From contig JABHRC010000034.1 of NCBI GenBank assembly GCA_018670435.1, positions 1 to 41,055 of the forward strand: a stretch of 41,055 nt of DNA. The letters run 5' to 3'. The notes below the pieces were generated by a model. It worked only from the letters and a program-made list of their open reading frames with translations, ran no database searches and was not told the origin of the DNA. The position numbers and the translations under genes were made by a program. Numbering within the stretch: the first letter of the stretch is position 1; each line of letters opens with the position of its first letter. This DNA is from Gammaproteobacteria bacterium (GTDB taxonomy: Bacteria > Pseudomonadota > Gammaproteobacteria > GCA-002705445 > GCA-002716945). Below are positions 23,578 to 38,211 of the stretch, piece by piece.

Positions 23578-23910
23578 TTATACGCAACCGGTTGGTTTTG
23601 GTAATCCTGCAAACTTACAAGCTTGCTTACCTGGACCATATGGAAATAACTCATAAAGATATTTACTATTACCTTTATCTTTACCTAGTTTTTTCCCAAC
23701 TGCTTTAGTTAATACTCTAACAGCCGGCGCAATTTGATATTCTTCATAATATTCACGTAGAAAATTAATAATTTCCCAGTGATCATCACCAAGATCAATA
23801 TCATCTTCTTTAGCCATTGCTGTAGCTAAATCTTTTTCCCAAAGGCTAAGATCAGCTAAGTATCCTTCTTCATCAGTCTCAAAAGACTTCCCATTTACTT
23901 CTATTGGCAT
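23578..23910 (-). CDS. dsrC: DsrC, sulfur-carrier protein with two C-terminal cysteines
   Basis: This 110-residue substrate-carrying protein of dissimilatory sulfur metabolism begins IEVNGKSFETDEEG, has the helix-turn core DDHWEIINFLREYY, and ends in the flexible arm KQACKFAGLPKPTGCV. Both redox cysteines are present: CysB at 98 and the penultimate CysA at 109, as needed to form the DsrC trisulfide. This separates it from TusE (CysA only) and from the two further paralogues in this window that lack CysA. Confidence 0.96.
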   Translation of the reverse strand: MPIEVNGKSFETDEEGYLADLSLWEKDLATAMAKEDDIDLGDDHWEIINFLREYYEEYQIAPAVRVLTKAVGKKLGKDKGNSKYLYELFPYGPGKQACKFAGLPKPTGCV

Positions 23911-25018: not shown

Positions 25019-26107
25019 TTAAAATCTAATGTATGTGGAAGAATTTAGAGTTTTCCTTCCACCACGCCAGTTATCAATATGATACTTAGTAAATGGAAGT
25101 TCTGTTAATTCAAAAAATCTTGGCCAACCTATCCTTTCAATCCAATCGTTGATGCGTTCCCAGTCTTTTGCATCTTCTTTGTATTTCGAAAGAATTCTTT
25201 TAACAATTGCTGTGGCTTCTGGCCATCTAGGTGGATTATTAGGTATTCCTGCTGCTACTAATTTCTGGAATGTTGGTTTACTACGTGCATTTGAATGGTT
25301 ACCGCCAACCCATATAGCAAGTTTACTATGCTCTGGATCGTTGATTTGCATCGGAGGACATGGAGGAAAACAAGCACCACAACAGATACATTTTTTTTCG
25401 TCAACTTCTAGAGAAGCTTTACCATTTACCATAGCTGGTCTAATCGCGGCTACAGGACACCTTGCTACAACCGATGGTCTTTCACATACATTTGATACCA
25501 AGTCATGATTAATTTTTGGCGGTTTAGTATGCTGAATATTGATTGCAATATCTCCTTGGCCACCACAATTAATCTGGCAACAAGATGTTGTCATGTGAAC
25601 TCTATTAGGCATGTCATTGTTTTTAAATTCATCTATTAACTCATCCATCATAGCTTTTACTACACCAGATGCATCAGTTCCTGGTATGTCACAATGTAAC
25701 CACCCTTGTGTGTGAGAGATCATGGCAACACTATTTTTTGTTCCTCCGACTATAAAACCTTCACTCTCAAGCGCCTCTATTAAAGGATCTACTTTTGAGG
25801 CATCATTAACCATATATTCAATGTTACTTCTAATGGTAAACCTTACAAATCCATCAGCAAATTTATCACCTATGTCGCATAGTGTGCGTAAAGTAAATAC
25901 GTCTAAGATTCTTTGGGTACCTGCTCTAACCGTCCATATTTCATCACCGCTATTAGAAGCATGTCTTAATACTCCTGGCTTGGGATGATCGTGCCATTTC
26001 CATTGGCCGAAATTTTTACGCATCGTCGGATGCATATATTGGAAACCGTCTGGTGCTCCAGTCTCTATAGGTGCTCTTTGTTGTTTTTTTTCTTTTGCTT
26101 CTGCCAT
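25019..26107 (-). CDS. dsrB: Dissimilatory sulfite reductase beta subunit DsrB
   Basis: This 362-residue subunit forms the alpha2beta2 siroheme sulfite reductase with DsrA. The siroheme/[4Fe-4S] binding region shows TTSCCQINCGGQGDIAI and a nearby cysteine in CERPSVVARCPV. A ferredoxin insertion has CICCGACFPPCPPM near residue 240. The N-terminal sulfite-reductase half contains the repeat with FVRFTIRSN. It works here in the oxidative direction, judged from dsrEFH and dsrL beside it. Confidence 0.97.
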   Translation of the reverse strand: MAEAKEKKQQRAPIETGAPDGFQYMHPTMRKNFGQWKWHDHPKPGVLRHASNSGDEIWTVRAGTQRILDVFTLRTLCDIGDKFADGFVRFTIRSNIEYMVNDASKVDPLIEALESEGFIVGGTKNSVAMISHTQGWLHCDIPGTDASGVVKAMMDELIDEFKNNDMPNRVHMTTSCCQINCGGQGDIAINIQHTKPPKINHDLVSNVCERPSVVARCPVAAIRPAMVNGKASLEVDEKKCICCGACFPPCPPMQINDPEHSKLAIWVGGNHSNARSKPTFQKLVAAGIPNNPPRWPEATAIVKRILSKYKEDAKDWERINDWIERIGWPRFFELTELPFTKYHIDNWRGGRKTLNSSTYIRF

Positions 26108-26121
26108 AATATTATTTCTCG

Positions 26122-27378
26122 TTAAGCTGTGCCTTTATCAGCAGCATCTGCTCTTTCATACCATTTAACTGCTTCTCCATCCCATCCATCACCTCTGAAG
26201 TAACTAGATTCTCTAGGATTTCCAACCATATTAGGGTCTACTTCAATTCCTATTCCTTCTAAGAAATTCACAAGACCAATTCTTTCAATCATCTCACCGC
26301 ATCTTTCATGCTCAAGAGCATTATCTGCCCAGAAATCTATTGATTCTTCAGCAATCTCAACGAGCTTATCCCAATCTTCTTGAGTTTCAAGCTTCATGAA
26401 AGGAACTATTACTGTTCCCATAAGGTCACCAATTTTTAGTGTTCTTTTCCCGCCCATAAGAACGGTTGCGCCTTTGTCATCTCCTGGATGTAATGCTTTT
26501 GGTACAACATTCAGACAGTGCATACATTTCACGCAATTCTGATTATCAATTGTTACAGAATCATCATCATTTAGGGAAATAGCATTTGTAGGACATCTTG
26601 TAACTATATTATCAATTACATATTTTCTTCCCTTCAAATCTACATATGCTTTAAATTCAGCTTGATCAATTTTAATGTCATCTCTCCATGTCCCAATTAT
26701 TGACATATCTGCCCTTTCTATTGAGTTCATACAATCATTTGCACATCCGGAAACCTTAAATTTGAATTTGTATGGTAATGCCGGTCTATGCATATCATCT
26801 ATAAAATTATTAACTAGTAATCTATGAGCTTTATGCTCATTTATGTTTGACATCTCACATCTACCTGCGCCAACACATGACATTGCTGTCCTAACACAAG
26901 GTCCGGCGCCACCTAAGTCAAAACCATATTCATTAATCTCATCAAAGAAATGTTGAGTAGCATCTGAAGTGGATCCAATAAACATTATATTTCCGGTCTG
27001 CCCATGAAATGTAACCAGCCCTGAGCCATATTTTTCCCAGCTATCAGCCATTTTTCTCAATATATCTGTTGTATAAAAATTTCCTGCTGGTGGCTGCACA
27101 CGTAATGTATGAAATTCCTTAGATTTAGGGAAAGCGTCTCCAACTTCAGAGAAACGAGGGATTATTCCTCCACCATAACCATATACACTTACAGTTCCGC
27201 CTTTCCAGTAGCCTTTTCTTGTCTCATATGAGTGCTCAAGTTGACCTAATAGATCATTAGTCATCTCATTAATTCTTTCTTCAGGGTGCTTATCTCTTAA
27301 TCTCTTAATACCGCTAATAAAACTAGGCCACGGTCCGTTTTCTAACTCATCAAGCATTGGTGTGTCATGTTTTTTCAA
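26122..27378 (-). CDS. dsrA: Dissimilatory sulfite reductase alpha subunit DsrA
   Basis: This 418-residue catalytic subunit matches oxidative DsrA in length. Fe-S/siroheme ligands appear as CVGAGRC (C-x5-C) near residue 167 and GCANDCMNS (C-x3-C) near 212. A ferredoxin domain has CVKCMHCLNV near 285. It begins at a TTG, supported by GGGAG seven bases upstream and by the homologous N-terminus KHDTPMLDELENGPWP; the first in-frame ATG would cut this conserved part. It is the first gene of the operon, with an inverted repeat in the upstream region. Confidence 0.97.
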   Translation of the reverse strand: MKKHDTPMLDELENGPWPSFISGIKRLRDKHPEERINEMTNDLLGQLEHSYETRKGYWKGGTVSVYGYGGGIIPRFSEVGDAFPKSKEFHTLRVQPPAGNFYTTDILRKMADSWEKYGSGLVTFHGQTGNIMFIGSTSDATQHFFDEINEYGFDLGGAGPCVRTAMSCVGAGRCEMSNINEHKAHRLLVNNFIDDMHRPALPYKFKFKVSGCANDCMNSIERADMSIIGTWRDDIKIDQAEFKAYVDLKGRKYVIDNIVTRCPTNAISLNDDDSVTIDNQNCVKCMHCLNVVPKALHPGDDKGATVLMGGKRTLKIGDLMGTVIVPFMKLETQEDWDKLVEIAEESIDFWADNALEHERCGEMIERIGLVNFLEGIGIEVDPNMVGNPRESSYFRGDGWDGEAVKWYERADAADKGTA

Positions 27379-27506: not shown

Positions 27507-28355
27507 ATGAATATACTTGAAAATAATAAAACTAATTATAAACTCTGGGCTGACAAAAAACTACAAGGATTTTCCAATAAATTAGATGATTTAATTGTGG
27601 AAATAGACAATCCTAATTCTCTTAGTAAGTCAGAAAAAGCCATGATGCATAGAATTATTAATCAACATAATATTGTCTTTTTCCAAATCAATAAGGGTGT
27701 TGATGACGTAAAATCATCTATTAAGATGTTGGCGTCTCAGGTTGGTCTTGGTAATTATGAGATAGACTCAAAATCGGACAGCGATGGTCTAACCGAGATA
27801 AAGATTCATGACAATATCAAGACAGATGCAGAGTATATACCTTATACAGATAAACAGCTAAAATGGCACACAGATGGATATTATAATGATGATGATAATC
27901 TTATATTGACTTGGTTGCTATTTTGTAAGAATCAATCTGAAAATGGTGGATTGAATAAATACATGGATCATGAAATCGCATATATTCTATTTAATGAAAA
28001 TTTCGATAATATTGATGACCTAATGCTCAATAATGCTTATAGAATACCAAAAAATGAATTAAATGGCAGGGAAGCTATTGATAACCCGATATTTTCATTT
28101 GTTGAAAATAAATTACATATGAAATTTAGTATGAGAGAGAAAAATATTATATGGAATGATAAATCTAAAGAAGCTTCAAAAAATCTAAAAAATATTATTA
28201 ATGATTCTGATATGTATCACATATCACATAAATTCACAGAAGGACAAGGAGTGATAACAAATAATATCATCCATATGCGCACATCATTTACAAATTTAGA
28301 AAAAAAGAATAGGCTCCTATATAGATTAAGATCTAAACAAAGGATGAGGGCCTAA
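27507..28355 (+). CDS. TauD/TfdA-family Fe(II)/2-oxoglutarate dioxygenase-like protein
   Basis: This 282-residue protein has the TauD-type iron facial triad. The first pair is the HxD motif in KWHTDGYYN (His121, Asp123), the distal His is at about 256 in NNIIHMRTSF, and arginines at about 269-275 could bind the 2-oxoglutarate carboxylate. TauD releases sulfite from taurine, but family members act on many substrates, and no taurine transporter is present, so the substrate is unknown. The gene is divergent from dsrA and shares one base with the next gene (TAATG), so it heads a coupled three-gene block ending with the Cas6-like gene. Confidence 0.78.
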   Translation: MNILENNKTNYKLWADKKLQGFSNKLDDLIVEIDNPNSLSKSEKAMMHRIINQHNIVFFQINKGVDDVKSSIKMLASQVGLGNYEIDSKSDSDGLTEIKIHDNIKTDAEYIPYTDKQLKWHTDGYYNDDDNLILTWLLFCKNQSENGGLNKYMDHEIAYILFNENFDNIDDLMLNNAYRIPKNELNGREAIDNPIFSFVENKLHMKFSMREKNIIWNDKSKEASKNLKNIINDSDMYHISHKFTEGQGVITNNIIHMRTSFTNLEKKNRLLYRLRSKQRMRA

Positions 28356-28546
28356 TGTTATATCTAAGTAGCGTATTAATAGATGAAAAAGATATTGAAA
28401 CTTTTAAAGAATTGCTTGAGGTAATAAAAGTTAGAGCTAGAGATGGTGAAATATTTATAAAGATTGATTTAAAACCGCCATTTCCTGATACACCTGATAA
28501 TTGGGAAGATAAAATTGAATCAGCTTTCAGTAGCTATATTAAATAG
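28355..28546 (+). CDS. Small protein of unknown function between TauD-like and Cas6-like genes
   Basis: This 63-residue acidic protein is not recognised. It has an amphipathic first half (DEKDIETFKELLEVIKVRARDGEIFIKIDL) and a conserved-looking PPFPDTPDNWED segment. It has no cysteine, signal or membrane segment. It starts on the stop codon of the dioxygenase gene (one-base overlap), and its stop is one base before the ATG of the Cas6-like gene. It is therefore almost certainly translated as part of the same message and may work with either neighbour. Confidence 0.7.
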   Translation: MLYLSSVLIDEKDIETFKELLEVIKVRARDGEIFIKIDLKPPFPDTPDNWEDKIESAFSSYIK

Positions 28547-28547
28547 T

Positions 28548-29216
28548 ATGTGGGAAGAAGAAGAAAAGCTTGAAGAGAAATCAACTATGATCGATGTTGC
28601 ATTTAAAATAAAATGTAAAACATTGCCTTACGATCATATCTCAGAATTATCTAATGCTATAACCAAACTAGCTCCATGGATGTTAGAGGATAATCTAATT
28701 GGAGTTCATACACTGCATGGTCCAGATTTTGGAAATGGCTGGGTCAGATCTGAAAATGATGAAATTTTTTTATCTAAGCGAACAAGATTAATATTAAGAA
28801 TTCCTAAAATTAATATCGATAAAATAAGATCGTTGGAGGGCTCAACTATAAATGTTTTAAGTAATGATATACAGATCGGAAAATCTATTGTAAAACCATT
28901 TCTTGTTGTAAGAGACTTAATTTGCAGATCTGTATTATGTAATCCAAATCAAACAGAAGAAGATTTCTTATTTGAAATCAAAGAACAATTGATTGCGCAT
29001 GGAATATTTATCAAAAAAGCTATTTGCGGTAAAGCTAAAAGTATGCAGCTTGAAGGAAAAAATCAATTTACAAGGAGCCTCATGATTGCTGGTTTACCTA
29101 AAGATCAGTCTATACTATTGCAAGATTTAGGTATTGGGGATGGCAGGATATATGGGTGTGGCATCCTATTACCCCATAAATCTATAGATGCAGTTGCAAA
29201 CTTCAAAGAAGACTAA
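28548..29216 (+). CDS. Cas6/Cmx6-like protein (Cas6 subtype MYXAN family) outside any CRISPR locus
   Basis: This 222-residue protein has the features I associate with the Cas6/Cmx6 family. They are IDVAFKIKCKTLPYDH near the N-terminus, GIHTLHGPDFGNGWVR, SKRTRLILRIPK, a central VVRDLICRSVLC block, and a C-terminal glycine-rich loop GIGDGRIYGCGILLPHK preceded by RSLMIAGL. Cas6 proteins are RAMP-fold RNA-binding endoribonucleases that process CRISPR RNA. Here there is no repeat array and no other cas gene. The start at 28548 is chosen because it directly follows the upstream stop and keeps the acidic MWEEEE leader; a TTG at 28515 is less likely, and an ATG at 28587 also has a purine-rich site. 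The catalytic state cannot be read from the sequence. Confidence 0.72.
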   Translation: MWEEEEKLEEKSTMIDVAFKIKCKTLPYDHISELSNAITKLAPWMLEDNLIGVHTLHGPDFGNGWVRSENDEIFLSKRTRLILRIPKINIDKIRSLEGSTINVLSNDIQIGKSIVKPFLVVRDLICRSVLCNPNQTEEDFLFEIKEQLIAHGIFIKKAICGKAKSMQLEGKNQFTRSLMIAGLPKDQSILLQDLGIGDGRIYGCGILLPHKSIDAVANFKED

Positions 29217-29301
29217 CTATTAGTTAAAATCGATATGGACATATTTCGTTGAGTATATTAGAATTTTCAAATATACAAACAAGGATTAGATGGAGTCTCA
29301 A

Positions 29302-29640
29302 ATGAAAGTAGAGGTAAATGGTCAGGTAATCGAAACAACTGAAACAGGTTTTCTTACCAAGCTAGAGGACTGGACTGAAGATATAGCTAAAGTAATTGCA
29401 CTTCAAGAAGAGATAGAATTAACCGAGAGACACTGGGATGTAATTAAGTATCTTAGAGATGAATTTATAAATAATAAAGAAAATCAGCCCAATACTAGGA
29501 ATATGGTTAAAGATCTAGGAAAACTATGGGGTGAAAAAATAGATACTAAAACATTATTTGATTTATTCCCTGGCAATCCTAGCAAACAAGCTGGTAGAAT
29601 AGGTGGCTTACCAGAAAGTAGGAGAAAAGGTGGATATTAA
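29302..29640 (+). CDS. DsrC/TusE-family paralogue lacking all cysteines (RspA-like)
   Basis: This 112-residue protein aligns along its whole length with DsrC: VEVNGQVIETTETGFL at the start, TERHWDVIKYLRDEF in the core, and the C-terminal LFPGNPSKQAGRIGGLPESR arm. Both carrier cysteines are gone (CysB is replaced by Gly, CysA lies within RRKGG), and the protein contains no cysteine at all. It therefore cannot carry sulfur by the DsrC/TusE chemistry. Such homologues have been grouped as RspA, with a suggested regulatory role. The ATG at 29302 has GGAG six bases upstream and gives the family N-terminus; an ATG at 29290 is an alternative. It is coupled to the next gene by a TAATG overlap. Confidence 0.85.
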   Translation: MKVEVNGQVIETTETGFLTKLEDWTEDIAKVIALQEEIELTERHWDVIKYLRDEFINNKENQPNTRNMVKDLGKLWGEKIDTKTLFDLFPGNPSKQAGRIGGLPESRRKGGY

Positions 29641-29864
29641 TGAGTGATATTAAAAAACTAGAAGAAGAAAGAAAAACTATAATTGCAACATTATTAAGAA
29701 TTCAAAAAGAATTCATGGAGCTTGAAAGAAAAAGTGGGGTAACGGAAAAAGATATTCACTTGAATCCAACAGGCATAATAAAAGAATACAAAGAAGAACA
29801 TGAAAAATTAGCTAACCGTTTGGTAGATATTGCTCATGAACTAAAGGGGTCTATAAGAACATAA
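29640..29864 (+). CDS. Small coiled-coil protein of unknown function
   Basis: This 74-residue highly charged protein is predicted to be mostly helical. Heptad-like runs of Leu/Ile between Glu/Lys (KKLEEERKTIIATLLRIQKEF) suggest a short coiled coil, interrupted by GVTEKDIHLNPTG and followed by a second helix with EEHEKLANRL. I do not recognise the family. It overlaps the preceding DsrC-like stop and the next gene's start by one base each, so the three are one translational unit. Confidence 0.68.
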   Translation: MSDIKKLEEERKTIIATLLRIQKEFMELERKSGVTEKDIHLNPTGIIKEYKEEHEKLANRLVDIAHELKGSIRT

Positions 29865-30058
29865 TGAATAATGAATATTTCACTAAAGTAACAGAGTTAG
29901 AAGAAATGAATGTCTCTGATGAATATATTATAGGGTGGCAAGAAGGATATCAGAACAGCCCCAAAGTTGAAGAACAAAGGCTCACTGATGCTTATGAAGC
30001 TGGCTATGAAGATGGTGAAAATAAAAATATAGATAATGCAGCTAACTTCAAAAAATAA
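29864..30058 (+). CDS. Small protein with two GW/GY..G repeats, resembling ribosome modulation factor
   Basis: This 64-residue acidic protein contains two similar units, YIIGWQEGYQNSP and AYEAGYEDGENK, separated by EEQRLT. The aromatic-glycine spacing recalls ribosome modulation factor (RMF), which has a GYQAG unit and a GWREG unit, but the present protein is acidic whereas RMF is basic. The likeness may therefore be only local. It is the last gene of the cysteine-less DsrC block and lies 2 bases from the convergent next gene. Confidence 0.6.
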   Translation: MNNEYFTKVTELEEMNVSDEYIIGWQEGYQNSPKVEEQRLTDAYEAGYEDGENKNIDNAANFKK

Positions 30059-30060
30059 TT

Positions 30061-30624
30061 CTATTTTCTATTTAATGACTCGTAAACTTCTATAAACTTC
30101 TTACAAATTTCAACAGCATCTATATCAACTATTTGGTCCATAACCCATTTATTTGTTTGGCTAGAACCCATGGCATCTTGAATTTTTTGCGCCAAGTGTC
30201 TAAAAATTGAATAATTACCAGATGATTTAGTAAACTCATATTGTGAATATTCTTCTGATCGGATATTAAGGGTGTTAATATAACCTTCTCTATAATTCCC
30301 ACCCCCAAATAAATCTTCGCAATTTTCCTGCATTATTCTGGCTGACTGTTGGCCTAAATTATTCATCACTGATATTCTATAATCATCCGTTTTTTTATCT
30401 TGGTATAAAAGGCGGTCAGCTAAATGTATCTGGAAAGACATAAATTCAACAATGACTGTTATACGCTGATGATCTGAAGAGTAATCAAAATCATCTCCAT
30501 GAAGATTACGAGCTTTATCAAGTGATAATTTCCATCCAATATATGATAATGCGCTTGCAATATCTTCACTGGTTTTTTCACGTTTGACAGTCTTAGACCA
30601 ATTACTTTTAATTCTTATAGCCAT
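30061..30624 (-). CDS. Conserved-looking hypothetical protein, 187 aa
   Basis: This soluble protein of mixed charge has no signal peptide and no membrane segment. It starts MAIRIKSNW and contains ITVIVEFMSFQIHLADRLLYQ, a segment RSEEYSQYEF near residue 125, and a C-terminal helix with WVMDQIVDIDAVE. I have a weak recollection of similar proteins in other sulfur oxidisers but cannot name a family. It is the only minus-strand gene inside the accessory block and is divergent from the second 2OG oxygenase gene (69-base spacer). Confidence 0.7.
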   Translation of the reverse strand: MAIRIKSNWSKTVKREKTSEDIASALSYIGWKLSLDKARNLHGDDFDYSSDHQRITVIVEFMSFQIHLADRLLYQDKKTDDYRISVMNNLGQQSARIMQENCEDLFGGGNYREGYINTLNIRSEEYSQYEFTKSSGNYSIFRHLAQKIQDAMGSSQTNKWVMDQIVDIDAVEICKKFIEVYESLNRK

Positions 30625-30693
30625 ATCTAAATTATCTTCATTATATATAGGTTATATTTTATACTATACACTCAACGTGTAAGAATATAAATA

Positions 30694-31302
30694 ATGGAGA
30701 ACTTGCAATTGGATATTCAACTAGATAAGAGGCTCATAGAATCAAAACCCGGAAGTTTTATTTTTGAATTCACCAATAGTATTTCTAATAAGGACTGCCA
30801 AGACATAATTAAAAGATTTGAGGAATCAGAAGCTGAACACTACCAAGGAAGGGTTGGCCAAACATTTGAAGAGAACACTGATATCAAAAAATCTACTGAT
30901 ATGGTTATAAGCGGTAAAGATAATTGGAAAGATATTGATACCTTATTATTTACAAGTTTAGCAAAAGCATTAAGCGGTGTTAAAAAACAATTCGATTTTT
31001 TTACTGGACCATTTAAGGATATAGGTTATGCAGTTCAAAGAACAAAACCTGGGGAATTTTTTCACTGGCATATAGATAGCGGAAGTCATCAATTTAGTGA
31101 CAGGCAATTAGTTGCCATTTGGTATCTTAATGATGTGGAGGGGCCGGGCGGCGAAACTGAGTTCTTATATCAGGATGTTAAGATTAAACCAGAAACTGGC
31201 AAACTTATCTTATTTCCTCCTTTTTGGACTCATGAACATCGTGGTGTTACACTGCAAAAAGGAGTTAAATACATTGCAACAACCTGGATAGTTTTCAAAT
31301 AA
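30694..31302 (+). CDS. 2OG-Fe(II) oxygenase, prolyl-4-hydroxylase/PiuC-like
   Basis: This 202-residue double-stranded beta-helix oxygenase has the HxD motif in HWHIDSG (His126, Asp128). The distal His is near 180-182 in FPPFWTHEHRGV, and the 2-oxoglutarate-binding basic residue is a lysine in GVKYIATTW (about 192). This H-x-D...H...K arrangement is that of the prolyl 4-hydroxylase/PKHD branch, different from the TauD-like enzyme 3 kb upstream. The substrate is unknown; relatives hydroxylate proteins, including ribosomal and translation factors. Its stop overlaps the start of the YbiB-like gene by one base. Confidence 0.82.
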   Translation: MENLQLDIQLDKRLIESKPGSFIFEFTNSISNKDCQDIIKRFEESEAEHYQGRVGQTFEENTDIKKSTDMVISGKDNWKDIDTLLFTSLAKALSGVKKQFDFFTGPFKDIGYAVQRTKPGEFFHWHIDSGSHQFSDRQLVAIWYLNDVEGPGGETEFLYQDVKIKPETGKLILFPPFWTHEHRGVTLQKGVKYIATTWIVFK

Positions 31303-32417
31303 TGCCATCAAAAAATAACTTAACAAAATCTGAGCTTATGAAATCAGTTATTCAAAGAATAGCTACTGGTCCTGACCTAAGTAAAAATATATCACGTGAA
31401 GAAGCAAAGGCAGCCATGGCAGCCATACTAGATGGAGATATCAGTGATGTCCGCTCAGCTATATTTCTAATTGCCCTAAGAATGAAAAGGGAAACACATG
31501 ATGAAAACTTAGGCGTCCATGATGCTATGATTGATTCAGTTAAAAAAATAAATGTTAATACTGATAACCTTGTAAACATTGCTGACCCATACGATGGTTT
31601 TACGAGAAATATTCCGTCATCTGCATATATTTTACCTGTGCTTGCAGAACTTGGAATCTCAGCTATCTCTCAAGGGGTAAACACAGTTGGCCCAAAGTTT
31701 GGCTGTACACATCATGCTATATTTAATCTATTAGGATTAGATGTCTATGCATCACATGAGACAGTGGCTGAAAGATTAGAAAATAAAAATATTGGATGGG
31801 GATACATAGATCAGAAAGTTTATTCTCCTAAACTTAATAATTTAATGGCCTTAAGAACTGAAATAATTAAAAGACCTGTTATCACAACAATTGAGGTTTT
31901 AGCAAACCCATTAATATCAAAAAAGAATCACTTTGTGACCGGCTATGTACATAAACCATATCCTCCTATTTATTTAATGCTTGCTAGAAATGCAAATTTT
32001 GACACTGCTATTGTTATTAGAGGTACAGAAGGAGGGGTAGTACCTTCTCTTAGGCAAAAAGGAAATGCTCATTATTATAAAAATATATCAAGTGAAAATG
32101 AGTTGATTGAAATAAATCCAGAAATAGATTTAGATATCAGTCAAGATGTTAGAGCTGTTAAAATTCCGGATACTATTGTAAAACATACATCTAGCGATAA
32201 AATTGAAACAAAAGTAAACCCAATTGATTTAGCGAAAGAATCACTGAAAATGGGAATGGATGCATTATCAGGTTCTGAGGGAACTATGAGCGACTGTATT
32301 TTATATGGTGCAACAATTATTCTAAGTCATGTGACAAACAATAGTATTAAGTCATGCTCAAAAGAAATTAAACAAGTATTGAATTCAGGTAGCGCATTAA
32401 AACGTATTAAAAAATAA
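31302..32417 (+). CDS. YbiB/TrpD2-like glycosyl transferase family 3 fold protein
   Basis: This 371-residue protein resembles anthranilate phosphoribosyltransferase. It has an N-terminal helical domain (LMKSVIQRIATG, ISREEAKAAMAAILDGDIS) and then an alpha/beta domain with NIADPYDGFTRNIPSS and QGVNTVGPKFGCTHHAIF. TrpD's PRPP-binding GTGGD loop is not seen, so it should not be called TrpD. The YbiB/TrpD2 group in E. coli has been shown to bind nucleic acids rather than act in tryptophan synthesis. It is flanked by the oxygenase (one-base overlap) and a Rieske gene (one-base spacer). Confidence 0.78.
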   Translation: MPSKNNLTKSELMKSVIQRIATGPDLSKNISREEAKAAMAAILDGDISDVRSAIFLIALRMKRETHDENLGVHDAMIDSVKKINVNTDNLVNIADPYDGFTRNIPSSAYILPVLAELGISAISQGVNTVGPKFGCTHHAIFNLLGLDVYASHETVAERLENKNIGWGYIDQKVYSPKLNNLMALRTEIIKRPVITTIEVLANPLISKKNHFVTGYVHKPYPPIYLMLARNANFDTAIVIRGTEGGVVPSLRQKGNAHYYKNISSENELIEINPEIDLDISQDVRAVKIPDTIVKHTSSDKIETKVNPIDLAKESLKMGMDALSGSEGTMSDCILYGATIILSHVTNNSIKSCSKEIKQVLNSGSALKRIKK

Positions 32418-32418
32418 G

Positions 32419-32724
32419 ATGACTAAACTAAAGATTGGTAATATTAATGATGTAGTAAATGGTGAAATGATCCAATCCACTATTAATAATAAAAATTATT
32501 TAATCGCTAAAATTGATGATGAGATATATGTCACATCTGACATGTGCACTCATGAAGATGCAGAGCTTACCATGGGGTGTCTAAGTGGTAAAAAAGTTAA
32601 ATGTCCTCTCCATGGCAGTTATTTTGATCTAATTACTGGTGAAGCGCAGAATGAGCCTGCTGAGGAACCAATCACAGTATATGAAATTAAAATTAAAAAT
32701 GGACAAATATTTATAGATGACTAA
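32419..32724 (+). CDS. Rieske-type [2Fe-2S] ferredoxin
   Basis: This 101-residue soluble Rieske protein has cluster ligands Cys43 and His45 in MCTHED and Cys62 and His65 in CPLHG, followed by SYFDLITG. There is no transmembrane segment or signal, so it resembles dioxygenase-type ferredoxins (BphF, NirD-like) rather than cytochrome bc1 subunits. It may supply electrons to a local oxygenase, though 2OG oxygenases do not normally need one. It overlaps the next gene by 8 bases. Confidence 0.9.
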   Translation: MTKLKIGNINDVVNGEMIQSTINNKNYLIAKIDDEIYVTSDMCTHEDAELTMGCLSGKKVKCPLHGSYFDLITGEAQNEPAEEPITVYEIKIKNGQIFIDD

Positions 32725-33049
32725 CCTAACTAATCTAAGAAAAGATAGTGGCGGCTTCCTATTAGATCCTTCTGACTGGTGCTTACCTCTCGCAGAGATG
32801 ATTGCAAAGGAATTTGATGAGGAACTCACAAAACAACACTGGATTGTAATATATTATATTAGGGAATATTTTGATATACACCAAAAAGTACCAGAGCTTA
32901 GAGAGTTATTAAAAACTTTTAAAAATAAGTATGGAGAGGCTAACTCAACAAGAAAATATATTTATAAATTATTCCCTTATGGATATGGTCAACAAGCATG
33001 TAAAATTGCAGGTATGAGGCAACCTAAAAAACTTTGGTTAGATATGTGA
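32717..33049 (+). CDS. DsrC/TusE-family paralogue with only the inner cysteine
   Basis: This 110-residue DsrC homologue lacks the first beta-hairpin IEVNGK segment but keeps GGFLLDPSDW, KQHWIVIYYIREYF, RKYIYKLFPYGYGQQACKIAG and a longer final tail. The inner cysteine (CysB) is retained, whereas the CysA position holds leucine and the tail ends KKLWLDM. A further Cys is at 22. It can therefore be neither a normal DsrC nor a TusE sulfur acceptor; a single-thiol or regulatory role is possible. Its gene overlaps the Rieske gene by 8 bases and is 2 bases from the DUF4396 gene. Confidence 0.85.
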   Translation: MTNLTNLRKDSGGFLLDPSDWCLPLAEMIAKEFDEELTKQHWIVIYYIREYFDIHQKVPELRELLKTFKNKYGEANSTRKYIYKLFPYGYGQQACKIAGMRQPKKLWLDM

Positions 33050-33051
33050 CA

Positions 33052-33498
33052 ATGAATACAAATATAAAAAATACATTTGATTGGAATTGTAAACATACAT
33101 GGAAACAATCCGCTATAAATACAATGTGGTGTCTAATAGGATGTAGTTTTGGCGACATGATGACAATATATTATTTTCAAGTAAATGAAATTCCATGGTC
33201 TATGCTATCTATTATGGCATTAGCAATGTTGAATGGAATAATATCAAGTATCATACTCGAGACATTCATCCTGCTGAAGCAAATGAAACTTATGGCTGCA
33301 CTTAAAACAGCATTTGGAATGAGTCTAATTTCCATGATAAGTATGGAGCTAGCCATGAATCTTACAGATATTTTAATTACCGGGGGAGCTAAAATAAACC
33401 TCTACGTAATTCCATTTATGTTGGTTGCAGGTTTTTTAACTCCCTGGCCATATAATTATTGGAGATTAAAAAAATATGGAATGGGTTGTTGCGGTTAA
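33052..33498 (+). CDS. DUF4396-family membrane protein
   Basis: This 148-residue protein has about three or four hydrophobic helices. It shows the features I associate with DUF4396: a W-x4-AINTMWCLIGCSFGD start, a glycine- and serine-rich helix ending SSIILETF, and GMSLISMISMELAMN. The paired CxxxC in CLIGC, the methionine-rich helices and the C-terminal MGCCG suggest possible metal (copper?) or redox binding, which is inference. The frame extends to a TTG at 33034, but the ATG at 33052 directly follows the preceding stop. It overlaps the convergent exbB by 4 bases. Confidence 0.8.
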   Translation: MNTNIKNTFDWNCKHTWKQSAINTMWCLIGCSFGDMMTIYYFQVNEIPWSMLSIMALAMLNGIISSIILETFILLKQMKLMAALKTAFGMSLISMISMELAMNLTDILITGGAKINLYVIPFMLVAGFLTPWPYNYWRLKKYGMGCCG

Positions 33499-34124
33499 TT
33501 AATTTGTGATGTTAAAACTTTTGTCACAGAGTTTTCAATATTGTTTTTGAAAGTGTCAATTAGGTTTCTAAAATAAGATTCAAAAACAACTATAGGTATT
33601 GCAACTGACAAGCCGGCTGCAGTGGTAAGCAATGCTTCCCAGATACCACCTGATAAAATAGATGGATCAACATTCTTTCCAGCCATTTCCATTTGCTGAA
33701 ACGCTTCAATCATACCAAAAACAGTTCCAAGCAATCCGAGCAAAGGAGCGATAGTTGCTATGACTTGCAAACTATTAAGATTTGAACTGTAGCTATTTAT
33801 CCTCTCATCTGAAAGTCTAGTAATTTCTTCACGTATATCATTATCTGTTTTTGTTGTTAATTTTTTATGTTTGAGTAATTGATACATTGCGAAAGATACA
33901 ACCTCTGCTTGGGGGTCATTAATATCATTAATTAATTCATAAGCATCATTATGGTTATTTGAGAGCCATAAATTAATGCTCTTAGCTGTCTGATCAGATT
34001 TAAAAAATTGAACTTTATAAAAAATATGTAATTTATATAATATGACAGCAGTTGCATATATAGACAACACCAGCAATATATATACTATTGGCCCGCCAAG
34101 ATTTAAAAGTGAATTAACTTCCAT
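33495..34124 (-). CDS. exbB: ExbB-like proton channel subunit (MotA/TolQ/ExbB family)
   Basis: This 209-residue inner-membrane protein energises TonB together with ExbD. The first helix is near residues 12-32, and the conserved TolQ/ExbB core follows: VIATIAPLLGLLGTVFGMIEAF and GGIWEALLTTAAGLSVAIPIVVF. The receptor gene lies upstream on the same strand, separated by 253 bases that hold a predicted sRNA. The partner exbD genes are on the other side of the receptor on the plus strand. TolQ is excluded by the TonB context. Confidence 0.9.
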   Translation of the reverse strand: MEVNSLLNLGGPIVYILLVLSIYATAVILYKLHIFYKVQFFKSDQTAKSINLWLSNNHNDAYELINDINDPQAEVVSFAMYQLLKHKKLTTKTDNDIREEITRLSDERINSYSSNLNSLQVIATIAPLLGLLGTVFGMIEAFQQMEMAGKNVDPSILSGGIWEALLTTAAGLSVAIPIVVFESYFRNLIDTFKNNIENSVTKVLTSQIN

Positions 34125-34377: not shown

Positions 34378-36618
34378 TTAAAAATCAAATTTTATTCCAG
34401 CCATTACAGATAATGGTTTATTTGGACGTTTACCATACTCATGCTCTGAAGCCACGATGACTTTGTCGAATAAGTTGTCTACGTTGAAAAATAATCTTGC
34501 ATTTTTAATACCATTTGAATTCACAGGAATATTCATACCAGTGTGTAAGTCAAATATAAATGCTTTACCAGTACGGAAAGTATTTAGATCATCAGTAAAA
34601 GTATCATCATGGTACTTAGCCCCTAGAGCAATGCTCCAGTCATTAGTTTCCATACCAATTGATGTATACAGTTGGAAATCAGGTACATAAGCAATTGAAT
34701 TGCCGCTGAAATTAGTTTCACCACCTGTATATTCAGAACTCTGTAACATACCAGTAATCATTAATGGATATCTTACTGTACTATGTGCAGCCATTCCTTT
34801 CATTTGAGGAGTAGCAAACATATTGTTAAGTCTGTATTGGAATTCAATACCTTCAACTTCTGCAGCACCTTTGTTAGTTGTTGATCCCGAATCAGCGGAA
34901 GCACAACCATTTGCTTCTAAGCATGAGTCAATTAATTGACTGTAGTCATTATAGAAACCAATAATTTCAAAGAAACTGTTGTTTGTTTGTTTTCTGTAAC
35001 CAATTTCATAATTATCAGATTCTTCAGGCTCAATTGAAGCTGCTGATCCTGCGTCTACAGGACTGTGACCTTGATTGTAACCAACGAACATAGTTGCACC
35101 GCCACCCATATTATAAATAGTGGATGCAGCTATCATGGTTGCTGAATCAGATACATCTTTCTTAGAGTTACCTGGGTTAGCATTGGTACCGTCATTTTTT
35201 TCAGTATCTTCATGACGAATACCCAAAGTATGAGTAAATGCGCCTGCTGAGATAACGTCTTTTAAATGCCAAGACGATGCATCAGTATCTTTAAGTTCAG
35301 CATCATCAAACCTAGTCTGATCATTACCGTGTTCAGATAATAATGTCATAGTGCCATTAGCATCCTTAGTATATCTTTGACTGAAACCATCATCAGCTCT
35401 AGCCCTATAATCTTTATGACGTCTGTATCCATACTCAATAGCATGGTTACCAATATCTTGATTAATTACAAATTGATACCCATACATACCGTAATCACGA
35501 TGTCCCATCGATCTTTTGATATACTCGCCAGCAACCATTGCCGTATCATTTGTTAAGATATTACATGCTCTTAATTCTATACCTGTATCACCAGCACAGT
35601 TACCTTTCAAATCAAGTGCTGAATATTTAACTGTAGTTAACGGACCACTATTAGTCCCGTCAGCAGTTATCTTCATTTCACCGCTTTTACCCCAGATACG
35701 GCTGTATTTAGTTTTATAAACTTTTGATGTGATCTTCATGTTAGCTGAAGGTTGCATAGTATGAGTAAAGATATATCTGTGATAATCATTATCCATTTGA
35801 TCAACTGATGAAGCTCCATATCTTTGGTATGGATCAGCTGCAAAATCTACACCTGTTAAACCAATATATGTTTCGTTAGATGTTTCACTAGTATTTGAAC
35901 TTGTTATTTCAAAAGTCTGATTCCATGGACTAGTTGATGGTGCAAAGCTAAATTTAACTAAATCCGTTTGCTTATCAAATCCAGCATCTTTATTACCAGA
36001 GCCTTTTATGTTTTTATAACCATCGGCTCTGTAATCATGATATTCAAAAACATAACCAAATGATCCGATATTCCCACCATAGTATGTGTGATTTCTTGAG
36101 AAACCATCAGCGCCCATAGTTGCAGAATAATGTCCTTCTGAAGCCACAGTTGGGATCGAACGTGATAAAAAGTTAATTGTACCAGCAGTTGTTCTTGGTC
36201 CATTGCCAATAGCTGCCGCACCTTTTAATACTTCTACACCTTCCATACGACCAACATCCGGGAAGAAGTACATGCTTCCATTAGAATAAATAGCAGGACC
36301 TTGTGGTACGCCATCTTCTAGAATATTAATCTTTGTTGTTCTTAGGGCGCTTGTTCCACGCATACCTAAGTTTGTTCTGAGACCGTAACCGTCCTCAGTC
36401 TGAGAATATACGCCCGGAATACGTCTTAAGACTCTTTCCGCATCGGTATAACCCATCTCCTTCATTTCATCATCACCGATAAAATGGGCTGAACCAGCTT
36501 GTTGTGTTTCGTCTTGTGAACCAAATACACTAACTGGACTCATTTCTTCTGCATAGATTGGAGCACTGATAACCATCAGTGACGCAATCATATATGCTTT
36601 AAAATGTGCATTTTTCAT
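34378..36618 (-). CDS. TonB-dependent outer-membrane receptor, FecA-like
   Basis: This outer-membrane receptor is about 746 residues long. It has a signal peptide ending near SAPIYA, a Ton-box-like SPVSVFG at the mature N-terminus, and a plug domain with VLRRIPGVY, NLGMRGT, NILEDGVPQGPAIY and RMEGVEVLKGAAAIGNGPRT-type segments. A 22-strand-type barrel follows, ending in phenylalanine. The plug resembles FecA-type ferric receptors but has no N-terminal signalling domain. The frame opens at 36633; the ATG at 36618 is chosen because GAGGAA lies eight bases before it. Fur-box control indicates an iron-chelate substrate, of unknown identity. Confidence 0.9.
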   Translation of the reverse strand: MKNAHFKAYMIASLMVISAPIYAEEMSPVSVFGSQDETQQAGSAHFIGDDEMKEMGYTDAERVLRRIPGVYSQTEDGYGLRTNLGMRGTSALRTTKINILEDGVPQGPAIYSNGSMYFFPDVGRMEGVEVLKGAAAIGNGPRTTAGTINFLSRSIPTVASEGHYSATMGADGFSRNHTYYGGNIGSFGYVFEYHDYRADGYKNIKGSGNKDAGFDKQTDLVKFSFAPSTSPWNQTFEITSSNTSETSNETYIGLTGVDFAADPYQRYGASSVDQMDNDYHRYIFTHTMQPSANMKITSKVYKTKYSRIWGKSGEMKITADGTNSGPLTTVKYSALDLKGNCAGDTGIELRACNILTNDTAMVAGEYIKRSMGHRDYGMYGYQFVINQDIGNHAIEYGYRRHKDYRARADDGFSQRYTKDANGTMTLLSEHGNDQTRFDDAELKDTDASSWHLKDVISAGAFTHTLGIRHEDTEKNDGTNANPGNSKKDVSDSATMIAASTIYNMGGGATMFVGYNQGHSPVDAGSAASIEPEESDNYEIGYRKQTNNSFFEIIGFYNDYSQLIDSCLEANGCASADSGSTTNKGAAEVEGIEFQYRLNNMFATPQMKGMAAHSTVRYPLMITGMLQSSEYTGGETNFSGNSIAYVPDFQLYTSIGMETNDWSIALGAKYHDDTFTDDLNTFRTGKAFIFDLHTGMNIPVNSNGIKNARLFFNVDNLFDKVIVASEHEYGKRPNKPLSVMAGIKFDF

Positions 36619-36695
36619 TATTATGTTCCTCATTTATATATCAATAACGTTTAATTTTAGTGCTTAAAACAACCATAGATTTAAACATTTGAGTC

Positions 36696-36815: not shown

Positions 36816-37253
36816 ATGACTAAAATAAGCTTAACACCGATAATAGACGTAGTATTCATACTTCTGATATTCTTTATGCTTGCGACAAATTTCCAATCAT
36901 TTAATAAAACTGAAATACAAATATCTAATGAATCAGCCAGTGTTTCTCAAAGTGATAAAAAAATTTTCTTAATCGAATTTAATAAAGAAAGTGAATTCAA
37001 GTTAAATGGGACAGTAGCTAGCTTGGACTCTATTAAATCTGATATTATTTCTAGTAAAAACAAGAATGATGAGTTTTTAGTTATAGCTAAACCATCAAAA
37101 GGGGCAAACGTTCAGCTCTTACTGGGTGTATTAGCTAGTTTAAAATCTAGTAACATCGATAATGTTACTCTAGGTGTAATCAAGAGTAATGCTAATGATC
37201 CAGAGGTTAAAACAAAGAAATCTGTAAACTTACCACTACTAAAAAAGCAATAA
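36816..37253 (+). CDS. exbD: ExbD/TolR-family protein, first copy
   Basis: This 145-residue single-pass inner-membrane protein has a very short cytoplasmic N-terminus. The key membrane aspartate lies in LTPIIDVVFILLIFFMLATNF, followed by a periplasmic domain with LIEFNKESEFKLNG and LLGVLASLKSSNIDNVTLG. The pore aspartate is present, so it should work with ExbB in proton-driven energisation. It is the first of three tightly spaced plus-strand genes and is probably Fur-regulated from the shared intergenic region. Confidence 0.9.
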   Translation: MTKISLTPIIDVVFILLIFFMLATNFQSFNKTEIQISNESASVSQSDKKIFLIEFNKESEFKLNGTVASLDSIKSDIISSKNKNDEFLVIAKPSKGANVQLLLGVLASLKSSNIDNVTLGVIKSNANDPEVKTKKSVNLPLLKKQ

Positions 37254-37259
37254 ATCATT

Positions 37260-37655
37260 ATGAGAATAAAAGCTAAAAAAAAGATTTTGAATAATGAGGA
37301 TAATTTATTACCTCTAGTTAATATTATATTTCTATTGTTAATATTTTTTATGTTAGCTGGAGTCATAGCAAAACAAAAAGAACTTCATAATGTAAATCTC
37401 GCATCTGCAACTATTGAGGAATATAATGAAGATAATAAAAATACTCTATTTATTAATGTTGATGGATCTTTAACTTTAAATGATCAGCCTATAACAGAAT
37501 CTACACTTCAAGCTCAATTAGTCTCTCTAAAAACAGAAGATATAATAATAGCTGCAGATGGATCGCTAGATTCTAGCTCGCTGAACAAAATTCTTTTAAT
37601 ATTAAGTGCTAGTCAGATAAAAAATGTTACCTTACTCTCTAATGCAAATGAATGA
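37260..37655 (+). CDS. ExbD/TolR-family protein, second copy (membrane Asp replaced by Asn)
   Basis: This 131-residue homologue of the preceding gene begins MRIKAKKK, has the helix LLPLVNIIFLLLIFFMLAGV, and then a periplasmic domain with LFINVDGSLTLNDQPI and DGSLDSSSLNKILLIL. The residue aligned with the essential proton-carrying aspartate of ExbD (PIID in copy one) is asparagine (PLVN). Taken at face value this copy could not protonate, and would be structural in a mixed ExbD dimer. It lies 6 bases after the first copy and overlaps tonB by 8 bases. Confidence 0.87.
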   Translation: MRIKAKKKILNNEDNLLPLVNIIFLLLIFFMLAGVIAKQKELHNVNLASATIEEYNEDNKNTLFINVDGSLTLNDQPITESTLQAQLVSLKTEDIIIAADGSLDSSSLNKILLILSASQIKNVTLLSNANE

Positions 37656-38211
37656 ATCATCAAAGTTAAATAAATATTTATTAATAGCATTTATTATGCA
37701 TTCGTTTTTTTTATTCTCATTTAGTCTTCCTAGAACAGTCAATGATATCACCACTATTGGTGAAACAGGAATGCAAATACAGATGATGGTCCTAAAGAAA
37801 AGCGATGAAGTCTATGAAAAAAGTTTGGCGTCTGAAGAAATAAGAAATAAAACAGAAGATTCTGAAAAAGACCAAGAATTATTAATGGATAACAGAAAGG
37901 TTGGAGAAGAGTCAGTCTATACTTACGATACTTATTTTGGAAAAATTAGACAGATAATAGATGCTAATAAGAAATATCCTTTGTTATCTCGCCAAAGACA
38001 ACAAGAAGGGACTCCTACAGTAACATTCACAATACTAAAAAATGGTATTGTTGATGACTTGAGCATTAAGTCATCCGGATATCGATCTTTAGATAGAGAA
38101 GCAAGAAGAATGATCATGATATCATCACCGTTTCCAAGAATTCCAGATTCTGTCAATAAAAAATCTATCACCCTCACAATCCCAATTAATTTTAGATTAA
38201 CTAATAACTAA
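37648..38211 (+). CDS. tonB: Short TonB-like energy transducer without proline-rich spacer
   Basis: This protein of about 187 residues has one N-terminal membrane helix (YLLIAFIMHSFFLFSF) carrying the conserved histidine that TonB uses to interact with ExbB/ExbD. A charged middle region follows, then a C-terminal TonB domain: YFGKIRQIIDANKKYP, GTPTVTFTILKNGIV, SSGYRSLDREARRMI and PFPRIPDS. The usual Pro-Glu/Pro-Lys spacer that spans the periplasm is absent, replaced by a Glu/Lys-rich stretch of about 60 residues. The ATG at 37648 is chosen over two upstream in-frame ATGs as giving the normal short cytoplasmic end. It is convergent with cysG (4-base overlap). Confidence 0.88.
   Translation: MNESSKLNKYLLIAFIMHSFFLFSFSLPRTVNDITTIGETGMQIQMMVLKKSDEVYEKSLASEEIRNKTEDSEKDQELLMDNRKVGEESVYTYDTYFGKIRQIIDANKKYPLLSRQRQQEGTPTVTFTILKNGIVDDLSIKSSGYRSLDREARRMIMISSPFPRIPDSVNKKSITLTIPINFRLTNN

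Follow-up and report, generated by a model that had tools for sequence, protein, structure and literature searches.

A cysteine-free DsrC subfamily linked to the reverse Dsr pathway of gammaproteobacterial sulfur oxidisers, and its Cas6-like neighbour

A contig of a SUP05-like gammaproteobacterium (assembly GCA_018670435.1, contig JABHRC010000034.1; its 41,055 nucleotides are hereafter the window) carries, divergently from its reverse dissimilatory sulfite reductase (dsr) operon, a gene at 29302-29640 of the plus strand whose product, here called DsrC0, is a DsrC-family protein without a single cysteine. Across other genomes DsrC0 forms a subfamily of its own, with a predicted DsrC fold and a conserved RKGGY tail. 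It is under purifying selection, and it recurs near dsrA together with a Cas6-like gene that is present in nearly every dsrA-bearing genome of the class. We tentatively propose, giving the idea slightly less than an even chance, that DsrC0 represents an ancient cysteine-free DsrC subfamily devoted to the reverse Dsr (sulfur-oxidising) pathway, whose members would dock on Dsr partners as non-carriers.

The source is a metagenome-assembled genome of 971,885 bases (about 0.97 Mb), 84% complete. Its reverse dsr operon lies on the minus strand, with dsrAB at 27378-25019 (dsrA 26122-27378, dsrB 25019-26107), dsrEFH at 25011-23927, dsrC at 23910-23578, and more dsr genes beyond; dsrA stands head-to-head with the module holding DsrC0 and the Cas6-like gene. 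The canonical DsrC (23578-23910, minus strand) ends in KQACKFAGLPKPTGCV and has both C-terminal cysteines, CysB and the penultimate CysA. DsrC0 is 112 amino acids long, and another ATG lies in frame at 29290. The third member in the window, DsrC-B (32717-33049, plus strand), reads QQACKIAGMRQPKKLWLDM, keeps CysB and finishes on MRQPKKLWLDM (tail CKIAGMRQPKKLWLDM); its second cysteine, Cys22, shows no conservation among orthologues. All three match PF04358 and TIGR03342, with DsrC0 and DsrC-B scoring 111.5 and 104 bits on the former profile (cut-off 24.9) and 96.6 and 98 bits on the latter (cut-off 53.5). A genome-wide search finds five DsrC-family members, two of them outside the window: one on contig 26 (6279-6596, the C26 copy) with CysB only and the tail GLPMPQADS (CKLAGLPMPQADS), and one on contig 34 (2484-2780, the C34 copy) with CysA only, in GLPKPTGCV. 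One reduced genome holds all four possible cysteine states. DsrC proper has CysB and the penultimate CysA, whereas TusE, of the same Pfam family, keeps CysA and has CysB replaced. Judged by this pattern, the C34 copy is the true TusE. DsrC0 has neither cysteine, of the two just CysB is left in DsrC-B and in the C26 copy, and CysA is missing from all three. A sequence-only reading of the window had already recognised the three genes as DsrC relatives, described the canonical copy as having both cysteines and the DsrC0 gene as having none, concluded that neither extra copy is TusE, and advised a search for a separate one. All this holds, as does its claim that CysB is kept in DsrC-B; the leucine that it placed at the CysA position of DsrC-B is found only under a given alignment, since the tail is longer there.

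The same reading regarded the extra copies as degenerate, products of a graded loss, and on this point the comparison argues against it. DsrC0 was compared at Cas6-neighboured loci from the same family and across the class, and at 80 loci from named genomes. All 80 of the latter end in KGGY or RKGGY, typically in the form GLPESRRKGGY; 77 are free of cysteine, and each of the other three has one, located outside the tail. Because orthologues from other genomes are equally cysteine-free, the missing cysteines are not a sequencing error, one of the two cases that the sequence-only reading had named as able to overturn it. R108, K109, G110 and G111 are invariant in a 26-row alignment of DsrC0, as is Y112 in one of 51 rows. 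The protein keeps the DsrC arm motif around CysB (FPxxPSKQ..I.GLP), with mostly glycine or another small or polar residue at the CysB position itself, and the CysA segment is swapped for the fixed basic tail (E)SRRKGGY. The DsrC-B set makes a separate group, with the tail CKIAGMRKPxKLMLDV, and the C26 set another, with CKLAGLPMPxPDT; in these two subfamilies (A3, A4) CysB is invariant and CysA absent. At least two more paralogue tails occur, RAWSTG and AGAVDKGFGSV. Four loci (L025, L250, L256, L258) carry paralogues with CysB only and the tail RxWSTG, and five (L147, L149, L158, L216, L268) carry paralogues ending in ..GAVDKGFGSVA, of which the majority retain just the first cysteine.

A tree of the DsrC family was built with the tail columns removed, so that the trait cannot define the groups. 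The KGGY proteins form one clade in it (support 100/99), as do the PMPxPD proteins (100/100), and the LMLD and WSTG proteins fall together (98/86); the deeper branching order has no resolution. Pairwise ratios of non-synonymous to synonymous substitution rates (dN/dS) against same-genus relatives are 0.02-0.08 for DsrC0, 0.10 for DsrC-B, 0.04 for the C26 copy, and 0.06-0.09 for the Cas6-like gene. Judging from tree, tails and rates, DsrC0, DsrC-B and the C26 copy belong to separate, long-established subfamilies, each with a distinctive tail and under purifying selection, and are not stages of decay. The view that they are recent, decaying duplicates without function can point to the lost functional cysteines, but the old subfamilies, the conserved tails and dN/dS values of 0.02-0.10 rule it out, the neighbour of DsrC0 co-occurs with dsr near-universally, and phages have captured DsrC0. 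We give it virtually no probability, and the second overturning case, strain-specific duplicates of recent origin, falls with it.

The structural model of DsrC0 has a mean predicted local distance difference test score (pLDDT) of 85, and its best match is DsrC of Allochromatium vinosum (PDB 1yx3; template modelling score 0.77, 39% identity). In established DsrC chemistry, the persulfide is received by the penultimate cysteine (PMC3397948). Since the carrier cysteines are absent, DsrC0, as far as its sequence tells, cannot carry sulfur. Yet it keeps the fold and arm of DsrC, from which we infer docking without transfer. DsrC0 would occupy the docking place of DsrC, most probably on DsrAB, and would act there as a non-carrier subunit: a plug, an assembly factor, or a regulatory brake competing with DsrC. 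The sequence-only reading had suggested that the extra copies are decoys or effectors that read the state of the Dsr system. For DsrC0 such a role is possible, and for DsrC-B no class-wide gene linkage supporting it was found, so that the earlier interpretation as a whole is partly supported.

That reading overlooked the gene upstream of DsrC0, which is near-universal in dsr-bearing Gammaproteobacteria. At 28548-29216 on the plus strand (conserved start MW at 28548; the reading frame opens at 28515), it encodes a Cas6/Cmx6-like protein of the repeat-associated mysterious protein (RAMP) type. It matches PF09559 with 165.9 bits (cut-off 26.7) and scores 94.8 on TIGR02807, slightly below the cut-off of 98.85. 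Its model (mean pLDDT 86.6) matches the Cas6 of a type I-B CRISPR-associated transposon (CAST; CRISPR, clustered regularly interspaced short palindromic repeats; 8fcu_B, E 1e-15) and the Pyrococcus Cas6. Alignment with four Cmx6 proteins from CRISPR loci, each with cas3 directly after it, reveals two common features: an Asp-His pair opening the first helix (D29-H30 here, unchanged in all 38 dsr-linked proteins) and a glycine-rich loop. Predicted structure and alignment together give the protein the marks of the RAMP fold, namely this loop and a histidine at the general-base position. It resembles Cmx6 of type I-MYXAN CRISPR systems and Cas6 of type I-B CAST (PDB 8fcj, 8fcu) in sequence and fold, and shares the DH motif and glycine-rich loop with Cmx6, but has the extra conserved segments HGxxSGNGWxRP and PHKxI.

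The distribution of this gene follows dsr. In a sample of 370 class genomes, drawn at a completeness of at least 90% except for the source genome of the window, which is included, and with fragmentary dsrA matches counted, a PF09559 gene is present in 122 of 125 dsrA-bearing genomes as against 6 of 245 without dsrA. It lies within 10 kb of dsrA on the same contig in 91 genomes, head-to-head in every one, with a median gap of 1.7 kb. A link with cas1 is not seen in the class (cas1 in 60 of 128 genomes with the gene versus 89 of 242 without, p = 0.07), a search of the source genome, 84% complete as it is, found no cas1, and no cas genes adjoin it in the window, where its neighbours are dsr genes. 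A CRISPR context was therefore rejected. In one of the six exceptions without dsrA (G376), the PF09559 gene and cas1 share a contig, 6.5 kb apart, an arrangement that would suit a genuine CRISPR Cas6. The dsr-linked protein seems to keep the RNA-binding loop of CRISPR Cas6 and a histidine at the catalytic position, and would act at the level of RNA, as a component of this dsr-flanking cluster distinct from DsrC0, binding and perhaps cutting RNA.

DsrC0 might work with Dsr or with this neighbour. Of the 80 named loci, 68 have the Cas6-like gene immediately 5' of DsrC0 on the same strand. This direct adjacency, the Cas6 fold with CRISPR Cas6 proteins as top matches, the invariant DH and glycine-rich loop found also in CRISPR Cmx6, and the head-to-head position to dsrA would all suit a single ribonucleoprotein-type regulator, in which the Cas6-like protein would bind or cut an RNA hairpin of the dsr region while DsrC0 sensed the occupancy of the Dsr sulfur-transfer partners and served as the gate. 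We consider this unlikely. When the spacers of all loci compared were folded in search of a Cas6-target hairpin between the two genes, no consistent structure emerged, and the conserved motif that family members have there fits a -35/-10 promoter; such a hairpin was therefore rejected. Nor do the two proteins covary. In a mirror-tree analysis (rank-based distances, 48 loci), the partial correlation is 0.44 between DsrC0 and DsrB, 0.01 between DsrC0 and Cas6, and 0.81 between Cas6 and a TauD-like protein, so that a Cas6-DsrC0 complex finds no support in co-evolution. DsrC0 also occurs apart from its neighbour. At five named loci (L165, L167, L191, L193 and L197, two of them Porisulfidus) it stands close upstream of the dsr operon with the Cas6-like gene elsewhere in the genome; four genomes from other proteobacterial classes, each about 100% complete, and one further genome (G208) that has dsrA, carry DsrC0 and give no PF09559 match. 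Three viral contigs in all are assigned to the KGGY subfamily. On one of them, of 219,676 bases (L301, 9676-10339), a canonical dsrC and a KGGY-type DsrC0 form a tandem with 13 bp between them. A scan of 6.3 kb there gave no Cas6, and the neighbourhood has GroES, an endolysin, a MazG-like protein, nuclease families, a PstS-like and a Dps-like protein. Another, of 13.9 kb (L282, 2971-3312), has its KGGY-type DsrC0 amid phage-like genes (the endonuclease phrog_452, and phrog_480); the 6.3 kb read there shows no further dsr genes. Viral copies of the DsrC-B and C26 subfamilies were searched for, and none was found. Because of the loci with a separate Cas6, the Cas6-free genomes, the tandem with dsrC on a phage and the distances that track DsrB, we favour DsrC0 as a partner of Dsr rather than of Cas6. 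Three points weigh against this and against docking on DsrAB: the tail of the model (residues 108-112) has a pLDDT below 50 and is silent on insertion into DsrAB; the mirror-tree is crude, ignoring effects of rate and horizontal gene transfer; and the tight adjacency of the two genes is equally compatible with a joint function.

A further alternative makes DsrC0 a DNA-binding regulator of the divergent dsr promoter, one that would bind through its basic tail and that portion of the DsrC fold which resembles a helix-turn-helix. The DsrC of A. vinosum reportedly binds DNA upstream of dsr, DsrC0 lies divergently beside dsrA, and its basic tail is conserved. No operator was identified, DsrC0 sits at other sites in non-gammaproteobacteria, and the phage pairs it with dsrC, all of which makes this explanation quite improbable. 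The spacer motif itself reads as a putative sigma-70-like promoter, TGGACA-17-TAGAAT (29236-29264, plus strand), just upstream of DsrC0. It is a consensus match only, though one of the two top-scoring sites in the scan, and family members show the same layout. Given this site between the two genes, DsrC0 is probably expressed independently as well. The preferred docking of DsrC0 on Dsr partners can be widened into a joint reading that we hold to be doubtful: gammaproteobacterial reverse Dsr would be under a near-universal and so far undescribed module, whose cysteine-free mimic of DsrC would block or load DsrAB and whose Cas6-derived RNA endonuclease, severed from CRISPR, would tune dsr RNA, and phages would capture the mimic to steer sulfur oxidation in the host.

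The CysB-only copies are another matter. As CysA is absent, DsrC-B is neither DsrC nor TusE. Both subfamilies are patchy, the LMLD-type tail of DsrC-B being found in about 20 and the C26 type in about 9 of the 232 class genomes searched, and class-wide neither has a constant gene context, the neighbours varying by locus. In the window, DsrC-B follows a TrpD2/YbiB-like glycosyl transferase-family protein (31302-32417, plus strand) and a Rieske-type ferredoxin (32419-32724, plus strand), whose stop overlaps the DsrC-B start, and is followed by a DUF4396 membrane protein (33034-33498, plus strand). The two copies could serve as redox adaptors, in which the lone CysB would form mixed disulfides with a partner, for instance the Rieske or membrane neighbours of DsrC-B, and so signal redox state without passing sulfur to DsrAB. 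The invariance of CysB while CysA is absent in both subfamilies suits this, as does the coupling of the Rieske and DUF4396 genes to DsrC-B in the window's family. Outside that family the neighbours differ and linkage to either gene is not seen, and presence is patchy; the role is a guess, and it has a low probability.

The remaining genes of the module surround the Cas6-DsrC0 pair. Its first gene, divergent from dsrA, encodes the TauD-like 2-oxoglutarate (2OG)/Fe(II) dioxygenase (27507-28355, plus strand). Three small conserved proteins, of 63 (28355-28546, between the TauD-like and Cas6-like genes, family unassigned), 74 (29640-29864) and 64 amino acids (29864-30058), are encoded on the plus strand on either side of the pair, and none has a significant Pfam match. 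The start of the 74-amino-acid protein overlaps the DsrC0 stop (TAATG), so that this coupled gene set, like that of DsrC-B, is as the sequence-only reading described it. The 63- and 74-amino-acid proteins recur in the majority of gammaproteobacterial dsr loci, and outside the window's family the Cas6-DsrC0 pair is accompanied by the TauD-like gene at 44 of 61 loci, the 63-amino-acid protein at 41 and a protein of about 70 amino acids at 45, some flanks being incomplete. Two genes recur downstream of DsrC0 across many dsr loci, one without a Pfam or NCBIfam match (30061-30624, minus strand) and one for a 2OG-Fe(II) oxygenase (30694-31302), often joined by a PKHD-type hydroxylase and a protein of 106-120 amino acids of no assigned family. 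An ExbB/ExbD/TonB-like set with a TonB-dependent receptor (36816-38211, together with 33495-34124 and 34378-36633) adjoins the module, in an order conserved in several family members.

DsrC0 is like the DsrC of A. vinosum in fold, in its PF04358 match and in its place beside dsrAB, but has neither CysA nor CysB, a fixed RKGGY tail and a divergent module of its own. A 2014 review is said to have named cysteine-poor DsrC members RspA, "regulatory sulfur-related" proteins. DsrC0, which has no carrier cysteines, shares this trait and may be of that type. In addition to dsrC, A. vinosum has four unexplained DsrC homologues, one of which, Alvin_1508, goes down on pyrite, as do most dsr genes (PMC3368242, PMC11267869). 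Alvin_0028, 0345, 0732 and 1508 are candidates for a KGGY-tailed gene in this species. By RNA-seq, the most highly expressed genes of Ca. Thiodiazotropha include three of dsrC/tusE type (PMC13137333); peg.3252, numbered eleven genes from the dsrC of the dsr operon (peg.3241), may be the DsrC0 gene. Phage DsrC proteins missing one or both cysteines have been noted before (PMC4164917, PMC8190135), five of them with neither (PMC8190135), whereas here three viral contigs are placed in the KGGY subfamily, one with canonical dsrC in tandem. Of the papers searched in which Cas6 is named along with DsrC or dissimilatory sulfite reductase, none appears, going by titles and single mentions, to deal with a dsr-Cas6 linkage.

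Much of marine sulfide oxidation runs through the reverse Dsr pathway of SUP05 and its relatives. A family that stands beside dsrAB across gammaproteobacterial sulfur oxidisers and is predicted to be incapable of carrier chemistry suggests that a step of control or assembly has been missed in this heavily studied pathway. Calls of "dsrC" or "tusE" in metagenomes and phages cover several non-equivalent subfamilies, which can be told apart by their tails. Finally, the dsr-linked Cas6-like gene would clearly exemplify a CRISPR RNA nuclease fold put to new use outside CRISPR.

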